Below, piece by piece: positions 1,231-18,209 of a stretch of 64,000 nt of DNA. The notes below the pieces were generated by a model. The model was not told the DNA's origin and made no database searches. It saw only the letters and a program-made list of their open reading frames with translations. The stretch's first letter is position 1; every line of letters starts with the position of its first letter. The position numbers and the translations under genes were made by a program. The stretch spans positions 1,364,001 through 1,428,000 of the forward strand of contig NZ_CP083723.1 of NCBI RefSeq assembly GCF_020150815.1, written 5' to 3'. Source of the DNA: Haloprofundus salilacus (lineage in GTDB: Archaea > Halobacteriota > Halobacteria > Halobacteriales > Haloferacaceae).

Positions 1231-2406
1231 TCACCGTTCCACCGCGTACCCGCCGACGACGTCGCAGTCGTAGATATCCGGTTCGACGCCGGTCCGCTCG
1301 GGATACTCCCGTCGAATCGCCGCCTCGAACTCGGCGACGGCCTCCGGCGCGACGAGCGAGACGACAGAGCCGCCGAACCCCGCGCCGGTGAGTCGCGCGC
1401 CGTAGACGCCCTCGGTTTCGCGGGCGACATCGACGACCAGATCCAGTTCCGCACAGCTAACCTCGTAGTCGCCGCGCAGGCTCTCGTGAGAGTCGAACAT
1501 CAACTCGCCGACGGCGGTAAAATCGCCCTCCCGGAGCGCCGCGGCGGCGCGTCGAACGCGCTCGTTTTCGGAGACGACGTGTCGACAGCGGCGACGGATC
1601 GTCTCGGGAAGTGCGTCGGCGTGGGCGTTGAGCGCCGCCGGAGAGACGTCCCGGAGCGACCCGATTTCGGCGTCGAGTCGGTCGTCCAGCAGGTCGACGC
1701 CCCGAGCGCACTCCCGAACCCGGTCGTTGTACGCCGAGTCGACGAGTTCGTGTTCGACGTTCGTGTCCACCGCGACGATGCGAGCGCGGTCGCCGTCGAA
1801 GGGGACGAGTTCGGTCGAGCGGTCCCGGCAGTCCAGAAACAGCGCGGCGTCGGCCTCACAGAGTGCGACGGCGTACTGGTCCATGATGCCGCAGTCGAGA
1901 CCGACGAACTCGGTCTCGGCGCGCCACGCGAGATCGGCGAGGCTCCGGCGGTCAACGTCCAACTCGAACGCGGTCACGAGCGCGCCGCCGACGGCGAGTT
2001 CTAGCGCCGCTGAGGAAGAGAGTCCGGCCCCGCGAGGGACATCGCCGACGATGGCGAGCTCCGCGCCGCGGACCGCCTCTCCTCCGTCGACCGCCCGGAG
2101 TTCTGCGACGACGCCCTTCACGTAATCGACCCACTCGGCGGCGTCGGGCGGGTCAAGTTTCGAGAGTTCGAACGTCGCCGCCTCGGCGAAATCCGCCGAA
2201 TAGACGCGAATTGTCTCGTCGTCGCGAGCGCGCGCGGCGACGGCGGTGCGGCGGTCGATAGCCGCTGGAAGGACGAAGCCGTCGTTGTAGTCGGTGTGGC
2301 CGCCGACGAGGTTGACGCGGCCGGGCGCTGTCGCGCCGACTATACGTCCGCCTTCGCCGAACTGAGCGACGAGTTCGTCGGCCGCTCGGTCGAGTTGCTC
2401 CGACAT
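1231..2406 (-). CDS. galK: Galactokinase (GHMP kinase)
   Basis: The 391-residue protein matches the length of galactokinases. The N-terminal signature APGRVNLVGGHTDYNDG (about residues 27-43) is the sugar-binding motif, with HTD in place of the common EHTD context. The GHMP phosphate-binding loop is GAGLSSSAALE, and the C-terminal GAGFGGS motif is intact. It should phosphorylate galactose at C1 with ATP in the cytoplasm. It converges on the sugar-acid dehydratase upstream and is divergent from the acetamidase gene. A related sugar kinase of the same family remains possible. Confidence 0.88.
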   Translation of the reverse strand: MSEQLDRAADELVAQFGEGGRIVGATAPGRVNLVGGHTDYNDGFVLPAAIDRRTAVAARARDDETIRVYSADFAEAATFELSKLDPPDAAEWVDYVKGVVAELRAVDGGEAVRGAELAIVGDVPRGAGLSSSAALELAVGGALVTAFELDVDRRSLADLAWRAETEFVGLDCGIMDQYAVALCEADAALFLDCRDRSTELVPFDGDRARIVAVDTNVEHELVDSAYNDRVRECARGVDLLDDRLDAEIGSLRDVSPAALNAHADALPETIRRRCRHVVSENERVRRAAAALREGDFTAVGELMFDSHESLRGDYEVSCAELDLVVDVARETEGVYGARLTGAGFGGSVVSLVAPEAVAEFEAAIRREYPERTGVEPDIYDCDVVGGYAVER

Positions 2407-5934: not shown

Positions 5935-7797
5935 ATGCGCGATTGGCTCTCGCACCGGGCACAGACGTCCCCGACGGCGACGGCGCTCGTCGTCGCCGAT
6001 TCGGGGGCCGAGTGGACCGTCGCCGAACTCGACGCCGCCGTCGAGGAGACGGCGGGCCGCCTCGCCGCCCTCGGCGTCGAACCGGACGACCACCTCGGCG
6101 TCCTCATGGACAGTCGGGTGGCGTACGTGCTGTTCGTCCACGCCTCGATGCGACTCGGTGCGACGCTCGTCCCCCTGAACGACCGCCTCACCGCCGCCGA
6201 ACTCGGCCCGCAGATAGACCGCGCCGACCTGACAGCGCTCGTCTGCGGTGAGACGACCGAGGAGACGGCCGTCGAAGCGGTCGAGCACGCCGAAGGGACC
6301 GGAGCGGACGGAGAGACCGCAGCGGCGGTCCCGCTCGTCTCGGTCGACGAACCGCAGACGAGCGCCGTCGAGTCGTTCAAAGACGTGACCGCCGAATCGT
6401 TCGTCCCCGCCGAGTGGGAGCGCTCGGACCCGCTTCTGGTGCTGTTCACGTCGGGAACGACCGGCGACCCGAAAGCCGTCGTCCTCGAGATGGGGAACGT
6501 GCTGTCGAGCGCCGTCGCCTCCGCGTTCCACCTCGGCATCTCGCCAGACGACCGCTGGTTGGTGCCGCTGTCGCTGTACCACATGGGCGGCATCGGTCCG
6601 ATTCTGCGCGGTCCGCTCTACGGCATCACCGTTGTCCTCCGCGAGGAGTACGAACCCGGGTCGACCGCCGACGACGTCGGGCAGTACGACATCACGTGCG
6701 TCTCGCTCGTCCCGACGATGCTCACGCAGATGCTCGACACGCGCGGGACGCTCGCCGACTCGCTGCGAGTCGTCCTCCTCGGCGGCGCGCCGGCCCCGCG
6801 GTCGCTCGTCAAGCGCTGCCGCGACTACTCCGTCCCGGTGCATCCGACGTACGGGATGACCGAGACGGCTTCGCAGATAGCGACCGCCCGCCCGCAGGAG
6901 GCGTTCGACAACCCCGGGACGGTCGGTCGCCCGCTCTACTGGACGCAACTGACCGTCGTCAACGAGGACGGCGCCGAACTTCCGCCGAACGAAGTCGGCG
7001 AGTTGGTCGTCGACGGCCCGACCGTCTCGCCGGGCTACTACGACGACGAGGAGGCCACGGAGGCGGCGTTCGGCCCGAACGGACTCCACACCGGCGACGT
7101 CGGTTACCGCGACGAGGAGGGTCGCGTCTACGTGCTCAACCGCCTCGACGACCGCATCATCACCGGCGGCGAGAACGTCGACCCCGGCGAAATCGTCGAG
7201 ACGCTCCGCTCACACCCCGACGTCGCCGACGCCGCCGTTGTCGGCGTCCCCGACGACGAGTGGGGCGAACGGGTCGCGGCGCTTCTCGTCCCGAAGAATC
7301 CCAATCTCACCGTCGAGGAAGTCGAATCGTTCTGTCGGGAGCGGCTCGCGGGGTTCAAACTCCCACGGACTATCGAGTTCGACCACGAACTCCCCCGAAC
7401 GGTCTCGGGGACCGTCGACCGGGCGGCGCTCCGAGACCGGTTGGACGACGGCGTCCGCATCGAGGACGCCGAGTCGTCGGAACCGACGCGCGAACTTAGC
7501 GAACCGGAGGGCACGGCAGAAGACGAGGCTACCACCGACGCCGAAGCGACGCGAGTATCAGCCGAGCTGGCGGAGTCGGCCGACGACGGAGCCGACCACG
7601 TCGGAGACGTGGTCGAAGAAGCCGAGTCGACCGAAGATTCCCCCGAAGACGACTCGCCGGCCGACGACGCGCTCGAACCCTCTGACGAAGCCGACCGCAA
7701 TACCATCGACGACGCTGACGAGGCCGACGATACTGGCGACGCCGACGACGTCGTCGGCGTCGACGAGTCACGAGAGTCGTCGACCGACGACCGCTGA
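5935..7797 (+). CDS. menE: o-succinylbenzoate-CoA ligase-like AMP-forming enzyme with acidic C-terminal tail
   Basis: The start is the ATG in MRDWLSHRA; an in-frame GTG at 5911 would add eight residues. Adenylate-forming motifs are complete: LFTSGTTGDPKAV (phosphate loop), YGMTETAS, HTGDVGYRDEEG, and LNRLDDRIITGGENV. The catalytic Lys region near FKLPRTIEF and SGTVDRAAL closes the core at about residue 500. The overall pattern is MenE-like, activating o-succinylbenzoate for menaquinone synthesis, though other acyl-CoA ligases cannot be excluded because no other men gene is nearby. After about 7465 the protein continues for roughly 110 residues of almost pure Asp/Glu/Thr/Ser/Ala, which is not part of the enzyme fold. 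Confidence 0.8.
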   Translation: MRDWLSHRAQTSPTATALVVADSGAEWTVAELDAAVEETAGRLAALGVEPDDHLGVLMDSRVAYVLFVHASMRLGATLVPLNDRLTAAELGPQIDRADLTALVCGETTEETAVEAVEHAEGTGADGETAAAVPLVSVDEPQTSAVESFKDVTAESFVPAEWERSDPLLVLFTSGTTGDPKAVVLEMGNVLSSAVASAFHLGISPDDRWLVPLSLYHMGGIGPILRGPLYGITVVLREEYEPGSTADDVGQYDITCVSLVPTMLTQMLDTRGTLADSLRVVLLGGAPAPRSLVKRCRDYSVPVHPTYGMTETASQIATARPQEAFDNPGTVGRPLYWTQLTVVNEDGAELPPNEVGELVVDGPTVSPGYYDDEEATEAAFGPNGLHTGDVGYRDEEGRVYVLNRLDDRIITGGENVDPGEIVETLRSHPDVADAAVVGVPDDEWGERVAALLVPKNPNLTVEEVESFCRERLAGFKLPRTIEFDHELPRTVSGTVDRAALRDRLDDGVRIEDAESSEPTRELSEPEGTAEDEATTDAEATRVSAELAESADDGADHVGDVVEEAESTEDSPEDDSPADDALEPSDEADRNTIDDADEADDTGDADDVVGVDESRESSTDDR

Positions 7798-13559: not shown

Positions 13560-15308
13560 ATGCGACTGCAGGAGTACTGGGGGGTCGGACCGAAGACGAG
13601 CGACAGATTGCAGCGGACGCTCGGCGTCGACGCCGCCGTCGAGGCCATCGAATCCGCCGACGTGCGAGCGCTGACCGAAGCAGGCATCCCCGCCGGACGC
13701 GCAACGCGCATCCTCCGGCGGGCCAAAGGCGACGCCGGGATGGCGACGCTCGGAACGAGAGACGCGCGCTCGGTCTACGACGAGCTACTCTCGCTGGCAG
13801 GCGAACACGCCGTGACGCGTCACGCGGGCGACCGAATCCGCGTGCTCACGCCGCTGCCGGAGCGCTCCGCCCGCGACGCGCGACTCGACAAGATAGAGGC
13901 CGCCCGCGAAGCGTGGGCTGCATTGAACGCCGACGAACGGGACGAGGTTCTCGCGGCGTTCACCACCTACGACGAGGCGGGCGGAACCGAACGCGCCGCC
14001 GTGGAAGCGGCGCTCGCGCTTCGCGACATTGGTCTCGACGCGGGACCGTTCGCCGCGCTGGCAGACGTCGACGAGGGCGCGCTCTCGGAGGCCGTGGGGG
14101 CGCTCGGCTACGTCGACGGCGACGACGTGCTCGAAGGCGCCGACAAGAAACTCGACCGCCTCCGGGACCAGTTGGCGGCCGCGGAGCGCCTCGAATCCGG
14201 CGCGTTCGACCTTCTGGAGACGGTCCGCGAGGCGGGCACACGCCGCCTCGACGACTTCGAGCACGCGGTGGCCGACTACGTCGCCGCCGAGACGGAACTC
14301 TCGCGCGAAGACGTGCTCGGCGCGGCGGCCGACGACCCCGTCGACGCCGCCGACTTCGTCAGCACCACGCTCCGGACGCTCACCGCTGATCTCCGCGAAC
14401 AGGTCGACGAGCGCAAGGAGACCGTCGCCGCGGAACTCCGCGAGAGTATCGAGACCGCCCGCGACGACATCGACGCCGCCGTGAGCGCGGTCGAAGACAG
14501 CGCGTTCGCGCTCTCGCTGGCGCGGTTCGCCGACGCGCACGACCTCGTCCGTCCGGAGCTGGGCGGCGACGATGGACCCTTCGGCGTCGCCGCCGTCGAC
14601 GCGCGACACCTCTTTCTGGACGACGACGTGCAATCGGTGACGTACGCGGTGGGTCACCACACGCTCTCGTCGGAGCCGCAACCGCCCGCCGACGAGCGCG
14701 TAACCGTCCTGACGGGCGCGAACTCCGGCGGGAAGACGACGCTGCTCGAAACGCTCTGTCAGGTGGCGCTGTTGGCCGCGATGGGCCTCCCCGTCCCGGC
14801 GAGTCGCGCACAGGTCGGCGACTTCGACACCGTCGTCTTCCACCGTCGGCACGCGAGTTTCAACGCCGGTGTGCTCGAATCGACGCTCAAATCCATCGTG
14901 CCGCCGCTGTCCGGGGAGGGACGGACGCTGATGCTCGTCGACGAGTTCGAGGCCATCACCGAACCCGGCCGGGCAGCGGATTTACTGGGTGGGCTCGTCG
15001 GACTGACCGTCGACCGAAACGCGGTCGGCGTCTACGTCACGCACCTCGCGGAGGACCTGAGCCCGTTACCTGCCGCGGCGCGCATCGACGGCATCTTCGC
15101 GGAGGGACTGACGCCCGACCTCGAACTCCGCGTCGACTACCAACCGCGGTTCGGAACGATCGGTAAGTCGACGCCGGAGTTCATCGTCTCGCGACTCGTC
15201 GCGAACGCGAAGAACAACGTCGAGCGACAGGGATTCGAGACACTCGCCGCGGCCGTGGGCGAGGAGGCGGTGCAGCAGACGCTGTCGGACGCGCGCTGGC
15301 GGGAGTGA
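13560..15308 (+). CDS. MutS-like DNA repair ATPase with N-terminal helix-hairpin-helix region
   Basis: The 582-residue protein carries a MutS-type ATPase domain. Walker A is TGANSGGKTT (residues 385-394), Walker B is LMLVDEFEA with Asp461-Glu462, and a MutS helix-turn-helix-like C-terminus follows. The first about 50 residues (GVGPKTSDRLQ, GIPAGRATRIL) look like helix-hairpin-helix DNA binding. There is no mismatch-recognition domain, so it belongs with MutS5-like or related proteins. Its last 22 codons are repeated 2.67 kb downstream, at 17909-17977, on the other side of a foreign-looking cassette. Confidence 0.85.
   Translation: MRLQEYWGVGPKTSDRLQRTLGVDAAVEAIESADVRALTEAGIPAGRATRILRRAKGDAGMATLGTRDARSVYDELLSLAGEHAVTRHAGDRIRVLTPLPERSARDARLDKIEAAREAWAALNADERDEVLAAFTTYDEAGGTERAAVEAALALRDIGLDAGPFAALADVDEGALSEAVGALGYVDGDDVLEGADKKLDRLRDQLAAAERLESGAFDLLETVREAGTRRLDDFEHAVADYVAAETELSREDVLGAAADDPVDAADFVSTTLRTLTADLREQVDERKETVAAELRESIETARDDIDAAVSAVEDSAFALSLARFADAHDLVRPELGGDDGPFGVAAVDARHLFLDDDVQSVTYAVGHHTLSSEPQPPADERVTVLTGANSGGKTTLLETLCQVALLAAMGLPVPASRAQVGDFDTVVFHRRHASFNAGVLESTLKSIVPPLSGEGRTLMLVDEFEAITEPGRAADLLGGLVGLTVDRNAVGVYVTHLAEDLSPLPAAARIDGIFAEGLTPDLELRVDYQPRFGTIGKSTPEFIVSRLVANAKNNVERQGFETLAAAVGEEAVQQTLSDARWRE
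15243..15308 (+). repeat. Left copy of the mutS 3'-end repeat flanking the cassette
   Basis: These are the last 22 codons, including stop, of the MutS-like gene. A homologous copy lies at 17909-17977 in the same orientation. The longest identical core is 26 bp (15276-15301 against 17942-17967), within a region that is mostly identical at codon level. The two copies differ at several silent positions and have different stops (TGA here, TAG there). Confidence 0.85.
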
Positions 15309-15566
15309 CGGTCGAACTCGAAAGAGGGCGCGGTCGCGGGAGCGGGTCAAAACGGGAGAGTTGGTACGGTCGAGGGGAGAGAGATGATATGGACGGAAGA
15401 CGACCGTTCCCGTCGTTGGAGTTCCCACCACCAAAAGTCGTAGTCTGGGCACCGTCGACTGGAGCCACTGAAGGGCCGAAGCCAGCTCCGAGGTACGACA
15501 TAAACTGATTACGACAGGACGTGAGACGAGGAGAACAATTATGAATCGTGTGGACCAATCTCAAGC
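15309..15566. other. Intergenic region between the MutS-like gene and the cassette
   Basis: This 258-bp stretch has no supported gene. It is less GC-rich near its right end and contains cataaactgatta and caattatgaat elements that may carry the cassette promoter. It is the left junction zone of the inserted cassette. Confidence 0.5.
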
Positions 15567-16613
15567 ATGACAGCGTATGAGCCAGTAGAATCACCGGACG
15601 AAACGACGGTGTTTCCCTATCACGATCTCACACCTCCAACGCTCGTGGACGTCTTCAGAGCACGACAAGTCACCGACCACCACCTCCCAAAGACTCCTCT
15701 CGTCCGAAGCCAGTACCTCTCTAGCGAACTGGACGCAGACGTGTATCTGAAGAGAGACGATACCCTCCCGACGGGCGCCTTTAAAGTTCGAGGGGGGCTC
15801 AATCTGTGCTCCCAACTCGACCCCGAATTCCACGACCGTGGCCTGATAGCGGCGAGTACGGGGAACCATGGCCAGTCCATCGCATATGCCGGGCAGACGT
15901 TCGATATCCCTGCCGTGATTGCAGTTCCCGGGGATCCGAACGAGGACAAAGTCGAGGCGATCGAGCGATTCGGAGCGGAGGTTCACAGGGAGGGACGTGA
16001 CTATGACGACGCCCGAGAGTGGGCCGAGCAACAGGCAAGCGAGCACGGGTATCGGTACGTCCACTCGGCCAACGAACCACTTCTCATCGCCGGCGTCGGT
16101 ACGGCGGGATTGGAAGTTCTCGACGACCTTCCGGATGTCGACACCGTCATCTGTCCCATTGGCGGGGGGAGCAGTGCGTCAGGGTACTGTCTGACCGTCG
16201 GTGACGTGGCGGACGCGGACGTCGTTGGTGTCCAGTCCTCTAACGCGAACGCGATGTACCGAGCGTGGAACGAGGGGCACCTCGATCCCCAGCCGAGTGC
16301 GGACACCCTCGCGGAGGGGCTCCAGTCGCGCGTGCCGTTCGCGTTGACCTCCGAGATTCTCAGTGAGAAGCTAACAGACATGTTGACCGTTTCGGACGAA
16401 GCGATATGGAGGGCCGTCCGGACCATGGTCGAACGAGAGCACATCCTCCTCGAGGGTGCTGGGGCCGCGAGTGTCGCGGGAGCGTTGGCATTAGCCGACG
16501 AAATCGCCGGGAAAACTGTCGTCCTCCAACTCTCTGGCCGAAACATCTCCAAAGAGAAGTTAGATTGGGCGTTCGACATCGACGCCGACGCTGGGGAACT
16601 CGACGATGAGTGA
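15567..16613 (+). CDS. Threonine dehydratase-like PLP-dependent enzyme
   Basis: The 348-residue protein has the fold-type II PLP pattern: TGAFKVRGG with the Schiff-base Lys73, ASTGNHGQSIAYA, and the phosphate-binding CPIGGGSSASG. The C-terminal Ser-type region LQLSGRNIS completes the core. No ACT regulatory domain is present, so it is the catabolic, unregulated type of serine/threonine ammonia-lyase. It shares 8 nt with the following amidohydrolase gene, so they are translationally coupled. Codon choice is less GC-biased than in neighbours, supporting lateral transfer. The substrate could be threonine, serine or another 3-hydroxy amino acid. Confidence 0.87.
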   Translation: MTAYEPVESPDETTVFPYHDLTPPTLVDVFRARQVTDHHLPKTPLVRSQYLSSELDADVYLKRDDTLPTGAFKVRGGLNLCSQLDPEFHDRGLIAASTGNHGQSIAYAGQTFDIPAVIAVPGDPNEDKVEAIERFGAEVHREGRDYDDAREWAEQQASEHGYRYVHSANEPLLIAGVGTAGLEVLDDLPDVDTVICPIGGGSSASGYCLTVGDVADADVVGVQSSNANAMYRAWNEGHLDPQPSADTLAEGLQSRVPFALTSEILSEKLTDMLTVSDEAIWRAVRTMVEREHILLEGAGAASVAGALALADEIAGKTVVLQLSGRNISKEKLDWAFDIDADAGELDDE

Positions 16614-17886
16614 TGAGTTCGTTCGGGACCGGTTGCGTAAGCTTCGCCGGCAGTTCCACCGGTACCCGGAGCCCGCATGGTGTGAGTACTATACGACGAG
16701 TCGCATAGTCGACGAGGTAGAACGAATCGGCGTCGACCAGCTCTATATCGGAGAGGAGGCGTACGCGAGTGAACATCGGATGGCCGTCCCGGACAGCGCG
16801 ACGCTCCAGGAGTGGTACGACAGTGCCGCAGACGCCGGAGCACGGCCGGACGTCTTGGAATTGACAGATGGCGGACACACAGGGGCTATCGCGGTCCTCG
16901 AGAAGGGGACTGACGGCCCTACGGTCGCTCTCCGTGTTGATATCGACGGGATCCCCCAACGGGAAGCGAACGATTCGGAACACCTGCCCTCTGTCGAGGA
17001 GTTCCGATCGACGAACGAAGGCGTGATGCATGCCTGTGGCCACGACGCGCATATCACGATAGGGCTCGGAGTGCTCGAAGCCGTGAATCGGAGCGACGAG
17101 TTTGACGGGACGTTTAAGCTCATCTTCCAGCCTGCCGAGGAGCGCGCCGGCGGTGGAAAACCGATGGCGCTCTCTCAGCACACCGATGACATCGACTATT
17201 TCCTCGGGCTCCACGTCGGTCTGGGTCACCCGACAGGAGAAGTCGTCGGTGGGATCGTGAAACCACTCGCCGTCGCGAACTTCGAAGCTCGATTCCACGG
17301 TGAGTCCGCCCACTCGGGTAAGAATCCGAATCAGGGGCGGAACGCCATGCAATCAGCGTCAACAGCCGTCCAGAACTTGTACTCGATATCCCGTCACACC
17401 AACGGAGTGACCCGAATCAACGTCGGCCGTATCGACGGTGGAACTGCGCCGAACATCATCGCGGAGGAGGTGCGTATCGAAGGGGAGGTCCGAGGGGAAA
17501 CGAACGAACTCCTCCAGTTCCTGCGTGTGGAGACAGAACGGATCATCGACGCGGCCGCCGAAATGCACTCCTGCGTCAGCGAATTCGAGGTCACGGGCGA
17601 AGCGCCACGAGCCGACAGCGATCCCGAGTTTAGCAGGACTATCGCCGACGTTGCACGGGAACATAGTTCTGTCATGAACGTTACGGAGACGAGTGAATTC
17701 GGAGCGAGCGAGGACGCCACCTACCTCATGAAGACCGTCGAGGAACAGGGTGGGACGGTCTCGTACGCGATTATCGGTACCGACCACCCTGCACCACATC
17801 ACTCGAGCAGGTTCGATGTCGACGAACGAAGCTTGACCATCGGTGTGGAGGTCATCTCCGAGACGGTGACGACGCTCAGTTCCTGA
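16606..17886 (+). CDS. M20 family amidohydrolase (AbgA-like)
   Basis: The 426-residue protein is an M20D-type metallo-amidohydrolase: LRRQFHRYPEPAWCEYYT at the N-terminus, the metal Cys/His in HACGHDAHITIGLG, FQPAEERAGGG with the catalytic Glu, a lid domain with HGESAHSGKNP, and TDHPAPHHSSRFDVDE with the last metal His region. The extra segment between about residues 45 and 85 resembles the aminobenzoyl-glutamate hydrolase AbgA. It should cleave an N-acyl or amide bond of an amino-acid derivative. It starts 8 nt inside the upstream PLP enzyme gene and has the same lower-GC codon usage. Confidence 0.86.
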   Translation: MSDEFVRDRLRKLRRQFHRYPEPAWCEYYTTSRIVDEVERIGVDQLYIGEEAYASEHRMAVPDSATLQEWYDSAADAGARPDVLELTDGGHTGAIAVLEKGTDGPTVALRVDIDGIPQREANDSEHLPSVEEFRSTNEGVMHACGHDAHITIGLGVLEAVNRSDEFDGTFKLIFQPAEERAGGGKPMALSQHTDDIDYFLGLHVGLGHPTGEVVGGIVKPLAVANFEARFHGESAHSGKNPNQGRNAMQSASTAVQNLYSISRHTNGVTRINVGRIDGGTAPNIIAEEVRIEGEVRGETNELLQFLRVETERIIDAAAEMHSCVSEFEVTGEAPRADSDPEFSRTIADVAREHSSVMNVTETSEFGASEDATYLMKTVEEQGGTVSYAIIGTDHPAPHHSSRFDVDERSLTIGVEVISETVTTLSS

Positions 17887-17908
17887 CGGTTCGGTATCTG
17901 GTCTGTGT

Positions 17909-17977
17909 TTCGCGGCGGCCGTCGGCGAGGAGGCGGGTCAACAGACGCTGTCGGACGCGCGCTGGCGCGGCGAGTAG
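17909..17977 (+). repeat. Right copy of the mutS 3'-end repeat (gene remnant)
   Basis: In frame it reads FAAAVGEEAGQQTLSDARWRGE followed by TAG, nearly the C-terminus of the MutS-like protein at 15243-15308. No upstream mutS sequence accompanies it. It is therefore either an old mutS end left by insertion of the cassette, or an arriving copy from another strain. Confidence 0.85.
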
Positions 17978-17990
17978 CGGCGTCGGCGAG

Positions 17991-18209
17991 TTACCGCATT
18001 GATTCGAGACCGACGAACGCGCTGCGGTCTGCGGTGAGCCAGACGGTCACCCGCTCTTCTGCGGGCGTGTCTCTGGGGTATATCGTACAGCGGTCCGGAC
18101 CGTTCTCGTACCGGACGGTGACGCTGTGGAGGTCGAACGCGCGGCCGTCCATCTGGTAGTCGTGTGCGGGAGGAACGTCGGACAGGTCGTCGCTCGTAGG
18201 CAGGCTCAT
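17991..18209 (-). CDS. Small conserved haloarchaeal protein (DUF7511-like)
   Basis: The 72-residue protein contains VRYENGPDRCTIYP and ends VWLTADRSAFVGLESMR. This matches a widespread small haloarchaeal protein family that I recall as DUF7511, of unknown function. It has no transmembrane segment. The ATG at 18209 overlaps the stop of a possible small upstream ORF as ATGA. Confidence 0.7.
   Translation of the reverse strand: MSLPTSDDLSDVPPAHDYQMDGRAFDLHSVTVRYENGPDRCTIYPRDTPAEERVTVWLTADRSAFVGLESMR

Follow-up and report, generated by a model that had tools for sequence, protein, structure and literature searches.

Insertion of a two-gene operon at the end of a Haloprofundus mutS-like gene

Introduction

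How did two metabolic genes come to lie between two copies of the end of a mutS-like gene in Haloprofundus salilacus, and was an integrase involved? An earlier note on this DNA had described a pair of coupled, lower-GC genes bracketed by direct copies of the mutS 3' end, and had read the arrangement as a site-specific or homology-driven integration that rebuilds the open reading frame (ORF). In this work, we analysed a stretch of 64,000 nucleotides from this genome (the window; the genome is designated W hereafter) together with four congeners (G001 to G004; G003 is H. marisrubri SB9), giving five species in all. The loci of other haloarchaeal genera were also compared.

Results

Organization of the locus

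The features of the locus are listed in Table 1. The description of a lower-GC coupled gene pair between two direct copies of the mutS end was accurate. The pair, which encodes a dehydratase of the ammonia-lyase-like type and an M20 enzyme, overlaps by 8 nt and has a GC content of 60% (GC3 70-71%), compared with 64-71% (GC3 79-90%) in the neighbouring genes. The two repeat copies have the same orientation with a spacing of 2666, and 53 of their 58 nt are identical. As had also been reported for the window, the copies share an identical stretch of 26 nt (CAGACGCTGTCGGACGCGCGCTGGCG), located at their right end. All five differences fall within the left 32 nt and correspond, in the mutS frame, to three silent changes and one 2-nt change from Val to Gly. 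Read in this frame, copy 2 encodes FAAAVGEEAGQQTLSDARWRGE followed by a stop (22 codons plus stop, ending at 17977). A chance repeat was ruled out by the ungapped match score of the cassette flanks (43, vs no more than 12 in base-shuffled flanks).

The MutS-like protein is 91-93% identical across the four congeners. In the window, its last codon and stop (GAG TGA) form a new, cassette-side end. The left intergenic interval of the insert shows strong length differences among the carriers (window and loci L095, L096, and L097), and in G001 this part holds an internal tandem repeat (GTCGAACTCGAAAGAGGG / ATCGAACTCGAAAGAGGG).

Table 1. Coordinates of the features at the insertion locus (positions in the window).
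Feature	Position	Strand	Basis or remark
MutS-like gene (MutS domain V ATPase, 582 aa)	13560..15308	+	MutS2/MutS-like matches; final codons form the left repeat
Repeat copy 1 (mutS 3' end in use)	15244..15301	+	Direct-repeat comparison
New mutS tail GGAGTGA (..RWRE, stop)	15302..15308	+	In four of four cassette carriers (stop TGA or TAA); not in the empty site
Left intergenic part of insert	15309..15566	.	Length varies between carriers
PLP-dependent threonine/serine ammonia-lyase-like gene (PALP, 348 aa)	15567..16613	+	Family match
M20 amidohydrolase gene (AbgA-like, 426 aa)	16606..17886	+	Family match
Insert right edge	17887..17909	.	CGGTTCGGTATCTGGTC common to congeners, then TGTGTT filler in W only
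Repeat copy 2 (leftover mutS 3' end)	17910..17967	+	Long form in W only
Native mutS tail and stop CGGCGAGTAG	17968..17977	+	3' of copy 2; matches empty site CGGCGA..
DUF7511 gene	17991..18209	-	Follows the MutS-like gene in haloarchaeal genera (ancestral order)

Empty sites and the two mutS ends

The gene pair occupies the identical junction in three of the four congeners (G001, G002, and G003). In G004, the MutS-like gene directly adjoins the DUF7511 gene without a cassette, and no close homologue of the dehydratase was found anywhere in this genome. The same order without the pair is found in Halogranum, Haloferax, Halegenticoccus, Halogeometricum, Halobium, Salinigranum, and other genera. 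Because the cassette is absent at the mutS-DUF7511 junction in both G004 and these genera, the empty arrangement is ancestral, and the comparison of loci confirms an insertion behind the MutS-like gene. The earlier note had looked to close relatives for such an empty site, and had held that both copies and both genes in every relative would speak against an insertion; an empty site was found in a congener as well as in other genera, and one of the four congeners lacks the cassette.

In all four carriers (W, G001, G002, and G003), the MutS-like gene ends in RWRE and a stop (GGGAGTGA or GGGAGTAA), and the single 3' end at the empty site of G004 reads ..ARWRGETTD before its stop. In the alignment, the right-hand leftovers of the carriers read RWRGE, RWRGEN, or RWPDE before a stop, or frameshifted RWRGDD.., and are followed by the DUF7511 gene like the empty site. 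Since these leftovers match the empty site and the RWRE end is common to all carriers, the question of which mutS end is native can be answered: judged by this alignment, copy 2 ends in the displaced native tail, and copy 1 ends in a tail that arrived with the insert. The locus has features of integrative elements, namely, an empty site in relatives and a short direct repeat at both ends with reconstitution of the ORF. Furthermore, the best explanation would include a single founding event, because the RWRE left tail and a collinear right junction are common to W, G001, G002, and G003.

Short and long right junctions

The right-hand leftover is 16-18 nt long in G001 and G003, reading (G)TCGGACGCGCGTTGGC(G), and G002 has a more diverged stretch of the same length; these three genomes have one collinear right junction. 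W alone has 48 extra nt at this junction, which consist of the TGTGTT filler and 42 nt of the mutS end. The 58-nt copy 2 and the 26-bp core are found among the carriers only in W. The short junction is likely ancestral, because the W cassette groups with that of G001 (99% support).

Only 2-3 nt distinguish copy 2 of W from the mutS ends of G002, G001, and G004, and 5 nt distinguish it from copy 1 of the same genome. In non-coding DNA of genus age, approximately 8-10 changes are expected (Poisson P about 0.003-0.02 for the few observed). Because these changes are too few for an old non-coding leftover, the long copy 2 in W is probably a younger, re-made junction, with an age estimate based on a handful of sites. 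The idea that the 26-bp stretch served as the integration core thus found no support, as the repeat of the other carriers spans only approximately 12-18 nt and the long copy is W-specific and appears younger.

Trees and divergence

Among the five species, the tree of eight flanking genes is (G003,((W,G001)81,(G002,G004)100)), in which the split that joins W and G001 has 81/84 support. The cassette tree, (G003,(G002,(G001,W)99)), agrees with the flank tree. In five of six pairs, the cassette has a significantly lower silent-site divergence than the pooled flanks have. For W and G001, the values are 0.168 for the cassette and 0.301 for the flanks (p = 3e-8), and only one of 23 other genes has a lower value. 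In a gene-by-gene survey of the 54 ORFs of the window, the silent divergence of the cassette is low yet inside the range for all pairs, with the W-G001 pair being exceptionally low and at the extreme. On the basis of this survey, we gave up the idea that the species are clearly older than the cassette. A G001-like recombination tract was sought in the mutS of W and was not seen. Taken together, the sequences would best fit a single insertion that preceded the species split and was then handed down for the most part vertically, with an exchange or re-entry that involved the lineages of G001 and W.

The empty allele of G004 is nested beside the carrier G002, its sister with a support of 100, and has a single repeat copy, compared with the repeat pair in the related carrier allele. 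This absence may have resulted from a repeat-mediated deletion, or a later-spreading cassette may never have reached G004; either would account for it. The cassette ages are compatible with a later spread. Elsewhere in the window, the gene at 1231-2406 (minus strand) has its sole counterpart in G001 when the compared regions are considered. The silent divergence between the two is low (0.144), and the gene perhaps represents another recent exchange between W and G001.

Integrases, mobile partners, and reuse of the site

The insert contains only the two metabolic genes. No integrase gene was found in the cassette, and the nearest PF00589 matches are located approximately 167 kb upstream and 260 kb downstream. 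Six integrase candidates of the host were compared by tblastn with the window and related loci, including the inserts of the four carriers, and gave no match. The left intergenic part of the insert was searched for an integrase relic, and none was found. A transposon or casposon is not supported, since the insert has no transposase or Cas1 and a scan for inverted repeats gave nothing but weak GC-rich matches at its ends. An origin from a phage or virus was rejected; there was no phage match and no relative in viral contigs.

The earlier note had suggested a search for the 26-bp core beside other cassettes; no other use of the core was found in the five Haloprofundus genomes. Neither 80 other haloarchaeal loci nor the matching family genomes contain a second copy of the mutS end, and a recurrent hot spot was rejected on these grounds. 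None of the 80 loci has the cassette beside mutS in another genus as a potential donor. In Halogranum amylolyticum (locus L016, approximately 7743-7775), the MutS-like gene is followed, 11 nt past its stop, by a 17-nt partial copy of the mutS end (16/17 identical) that keeps the reading frame (..RQTLADG..). This partial copy may be a scar left by an insertion that was later lost; its score, taken by itself, falls inside the control range.

The gene pair in other Halobacteria

Other Halobacteria also have the two genes side by side as a unit, in unrelated gene neighbourhoods and in one case on a megaplasmid. On this Natrononativus megaplasmid, the pair is located beside genes for an IclR regulator, an RraA-like protein, and a peptide-type ABC transporter; in other Halobacteria, it is located beside BrkB, epimerase, or M81 genes. 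No flanking repeats above those in shuffled sequences were found around the pair in other genera. Because the adjacent unit recurs in different neighbourhoods without flanking repeats, the pair appears to behave as portable cargo that has no mover of its own. Judging from family and context, the M20 enzyme would act on an N-acyl or similar conjugate to set its amino acid free, and deamination of a hydroxy-amino acid by the PLP enzyme would yield a 2-oxo acid and ammonia.

Discussion

We consider it somewhat probable (roughly 0.6) that a portable catabolic operon was acquired once by a Haloprofundus ancestor through short-identity recombination at the 3' end of the mutS-like gene, was inherited mostly vertically afterwards, and had its right junction re-made in W. 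The ancestor would have gained the operon of the PLP ammonia-lyase and M20 amidohydrolase genes in one entry, with recombination over an identity of approximately 12-18 nt (GTCGGACGCGCGYTGGCG at longest, the repeat common to the carriers). The incoming DNA would have brought a new last codon and stop that completed the MutS-like protein again, leaving the native end displaced beyond the other edge of the insert. This DNA has no recombinase of its own and would then have been passed on mostly vertically, with G004 being empty through a repeat-mediated deletion or because the insert was never present there. In the W lineage, a longer stretch of mutS 3' end resembling that of congeners may have been used to re-make the right junction, and there are signs of a recent cassette exchange with the G001 lineage. 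This account is drawn from five species only, its argument on the age of copy 2 uses few sites, and no candidate donor was found in which the cassette adjoins a mutS end.

The short att-like repeat and the replaced stop would also be expected from site-specific integration (PMC6563490). A tyrosine recombinase, either the element's own and since deleted or acting in trans, may have used an att core of approximately 18 bp in the mutS 3' end, such that the two genes are a residue or cargo of an integrative element. The outcome resembles archaeal integrations at the 3' ends of protein genes, with a short att, a replaced stop, and a reconstituted ORF (PMC6563490; PMC8371274), and both ends of the insert are kept in four species. 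However, tblastn with the host integrases found no integrase in the inserts of the four carriers, the core is reused nowhere in the genus, no second mutS-end copy was found in the 80 loci or matching family genomes, and the pair has no flanking repeats elsewhere. We thus regard a tyrosine recombinase as the less likely agent, and prefer a recombination event over short identity, or a shortened circle that entered by a single crossover, to site-specific integration. Of the integration proposed in the earlier note, the empty sites bear out the entry at the 3' end of a protein gene and the rebuilt ORF, but not the site-specific form, for which neither an integrase nor reuse of the core was found. 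A native pair, with copy 2 explained by chance or by old tandem duplication at the mutS end, is highly improbable. The presence of the cassette in four of five species and a silent divergence near the genus norm would fit it, but the empty sites in G004 and all outgroup genera rule out a native pair or an old tandem duplication unless independent losses had removed the pair from every other genus, the repeat scores far above shuffles, and the two tails differ as new and native.

How the long copy arose in W is a sub-question compatible with short-identity acquisition followed by vertical descent. We tentatively entertain a fresh Campbell-type or one-sided homologous integration, in which a circular or linear piece carrying a congener's mutS 3' end and the cassette would recombine into an intact mutS end. 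The left part of copy 2 is nearer to the mutS ends of other species than to its own, the cassette is closer to that of G001 than the flanks are, a 6-nt filler is located at the junction, and single crossovers of shortened circles in E. coli yield such partial gene duplications (PMC3240628). On the other hand, the mutS of W has no G001-like tract, the informative sites are few, and double-strand break repair that copied a mutS allele would yield the same structure. A broader and rather doubtful possibility is that recombinase-free cassettes repeatedly enter, leave, and re-enter this gene end in Haloprofundus by short-homology recombination. If true, the gene end would be a landing site for integrase-less cargo, and the long junction of W would represent a second arrival.

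SCC-type and tRNA-type islands duplicate the 3' end of a gene and leave the gene intact, carry their own recombinase, and reuse their site. The duplicated 3' end and intact gene are alike in the locus described here, whereas a recombinase of its own and reuse of the site were not found in it. The Nitrososphaera element NitEve-E2, with a 13-bp att, replaced eight nt on insertion, the stop codon among them, and the ORF was restored (PMC6563490). The Haloprofundus locus is similar in its 3'-distal insertion in a protein gene, short direct repeat, insert-borne stop, and empty site in a relative (PMC6563490), but differs in having only two metabolic genes, no integrase or mobile-element gene, and a right repeat that varies in length by species. 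In haloarchaea, repeat-mediated deletion over direct repeats of usually <20 bp is documented (PMC3119063). Such repeat-bounded indels likewise have strain- or species-specific DNA between short direct repeats and a single copy at the empty site (PMC3119063); unlike them, the Haloprofundus segment was first gained, as the outgroups show, and its repeat forms the end of a functional gene. Single-crossover or homology-facilitated illegitimate integration in E. coli also involves one homologous anchor and a partial duplicate of the end of the anchor gene (PMC3240628), but was shown with long homology, whereas the short-identity event proposed here is deduced from sequence. The insertion is thus ordinary in kind: archaeal precedents with ORF reconstitution exist, and no new kind of system is added. 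What the locus provides is a traceable case of a small catabolic operon, with no mobility genes, joining an archaeal chromosome and leaving the host gene unharmed: the five species together hold the empty site and both the short and the long junction. The locus makes integrase-free gene gain in haloarchaea testable at one site.
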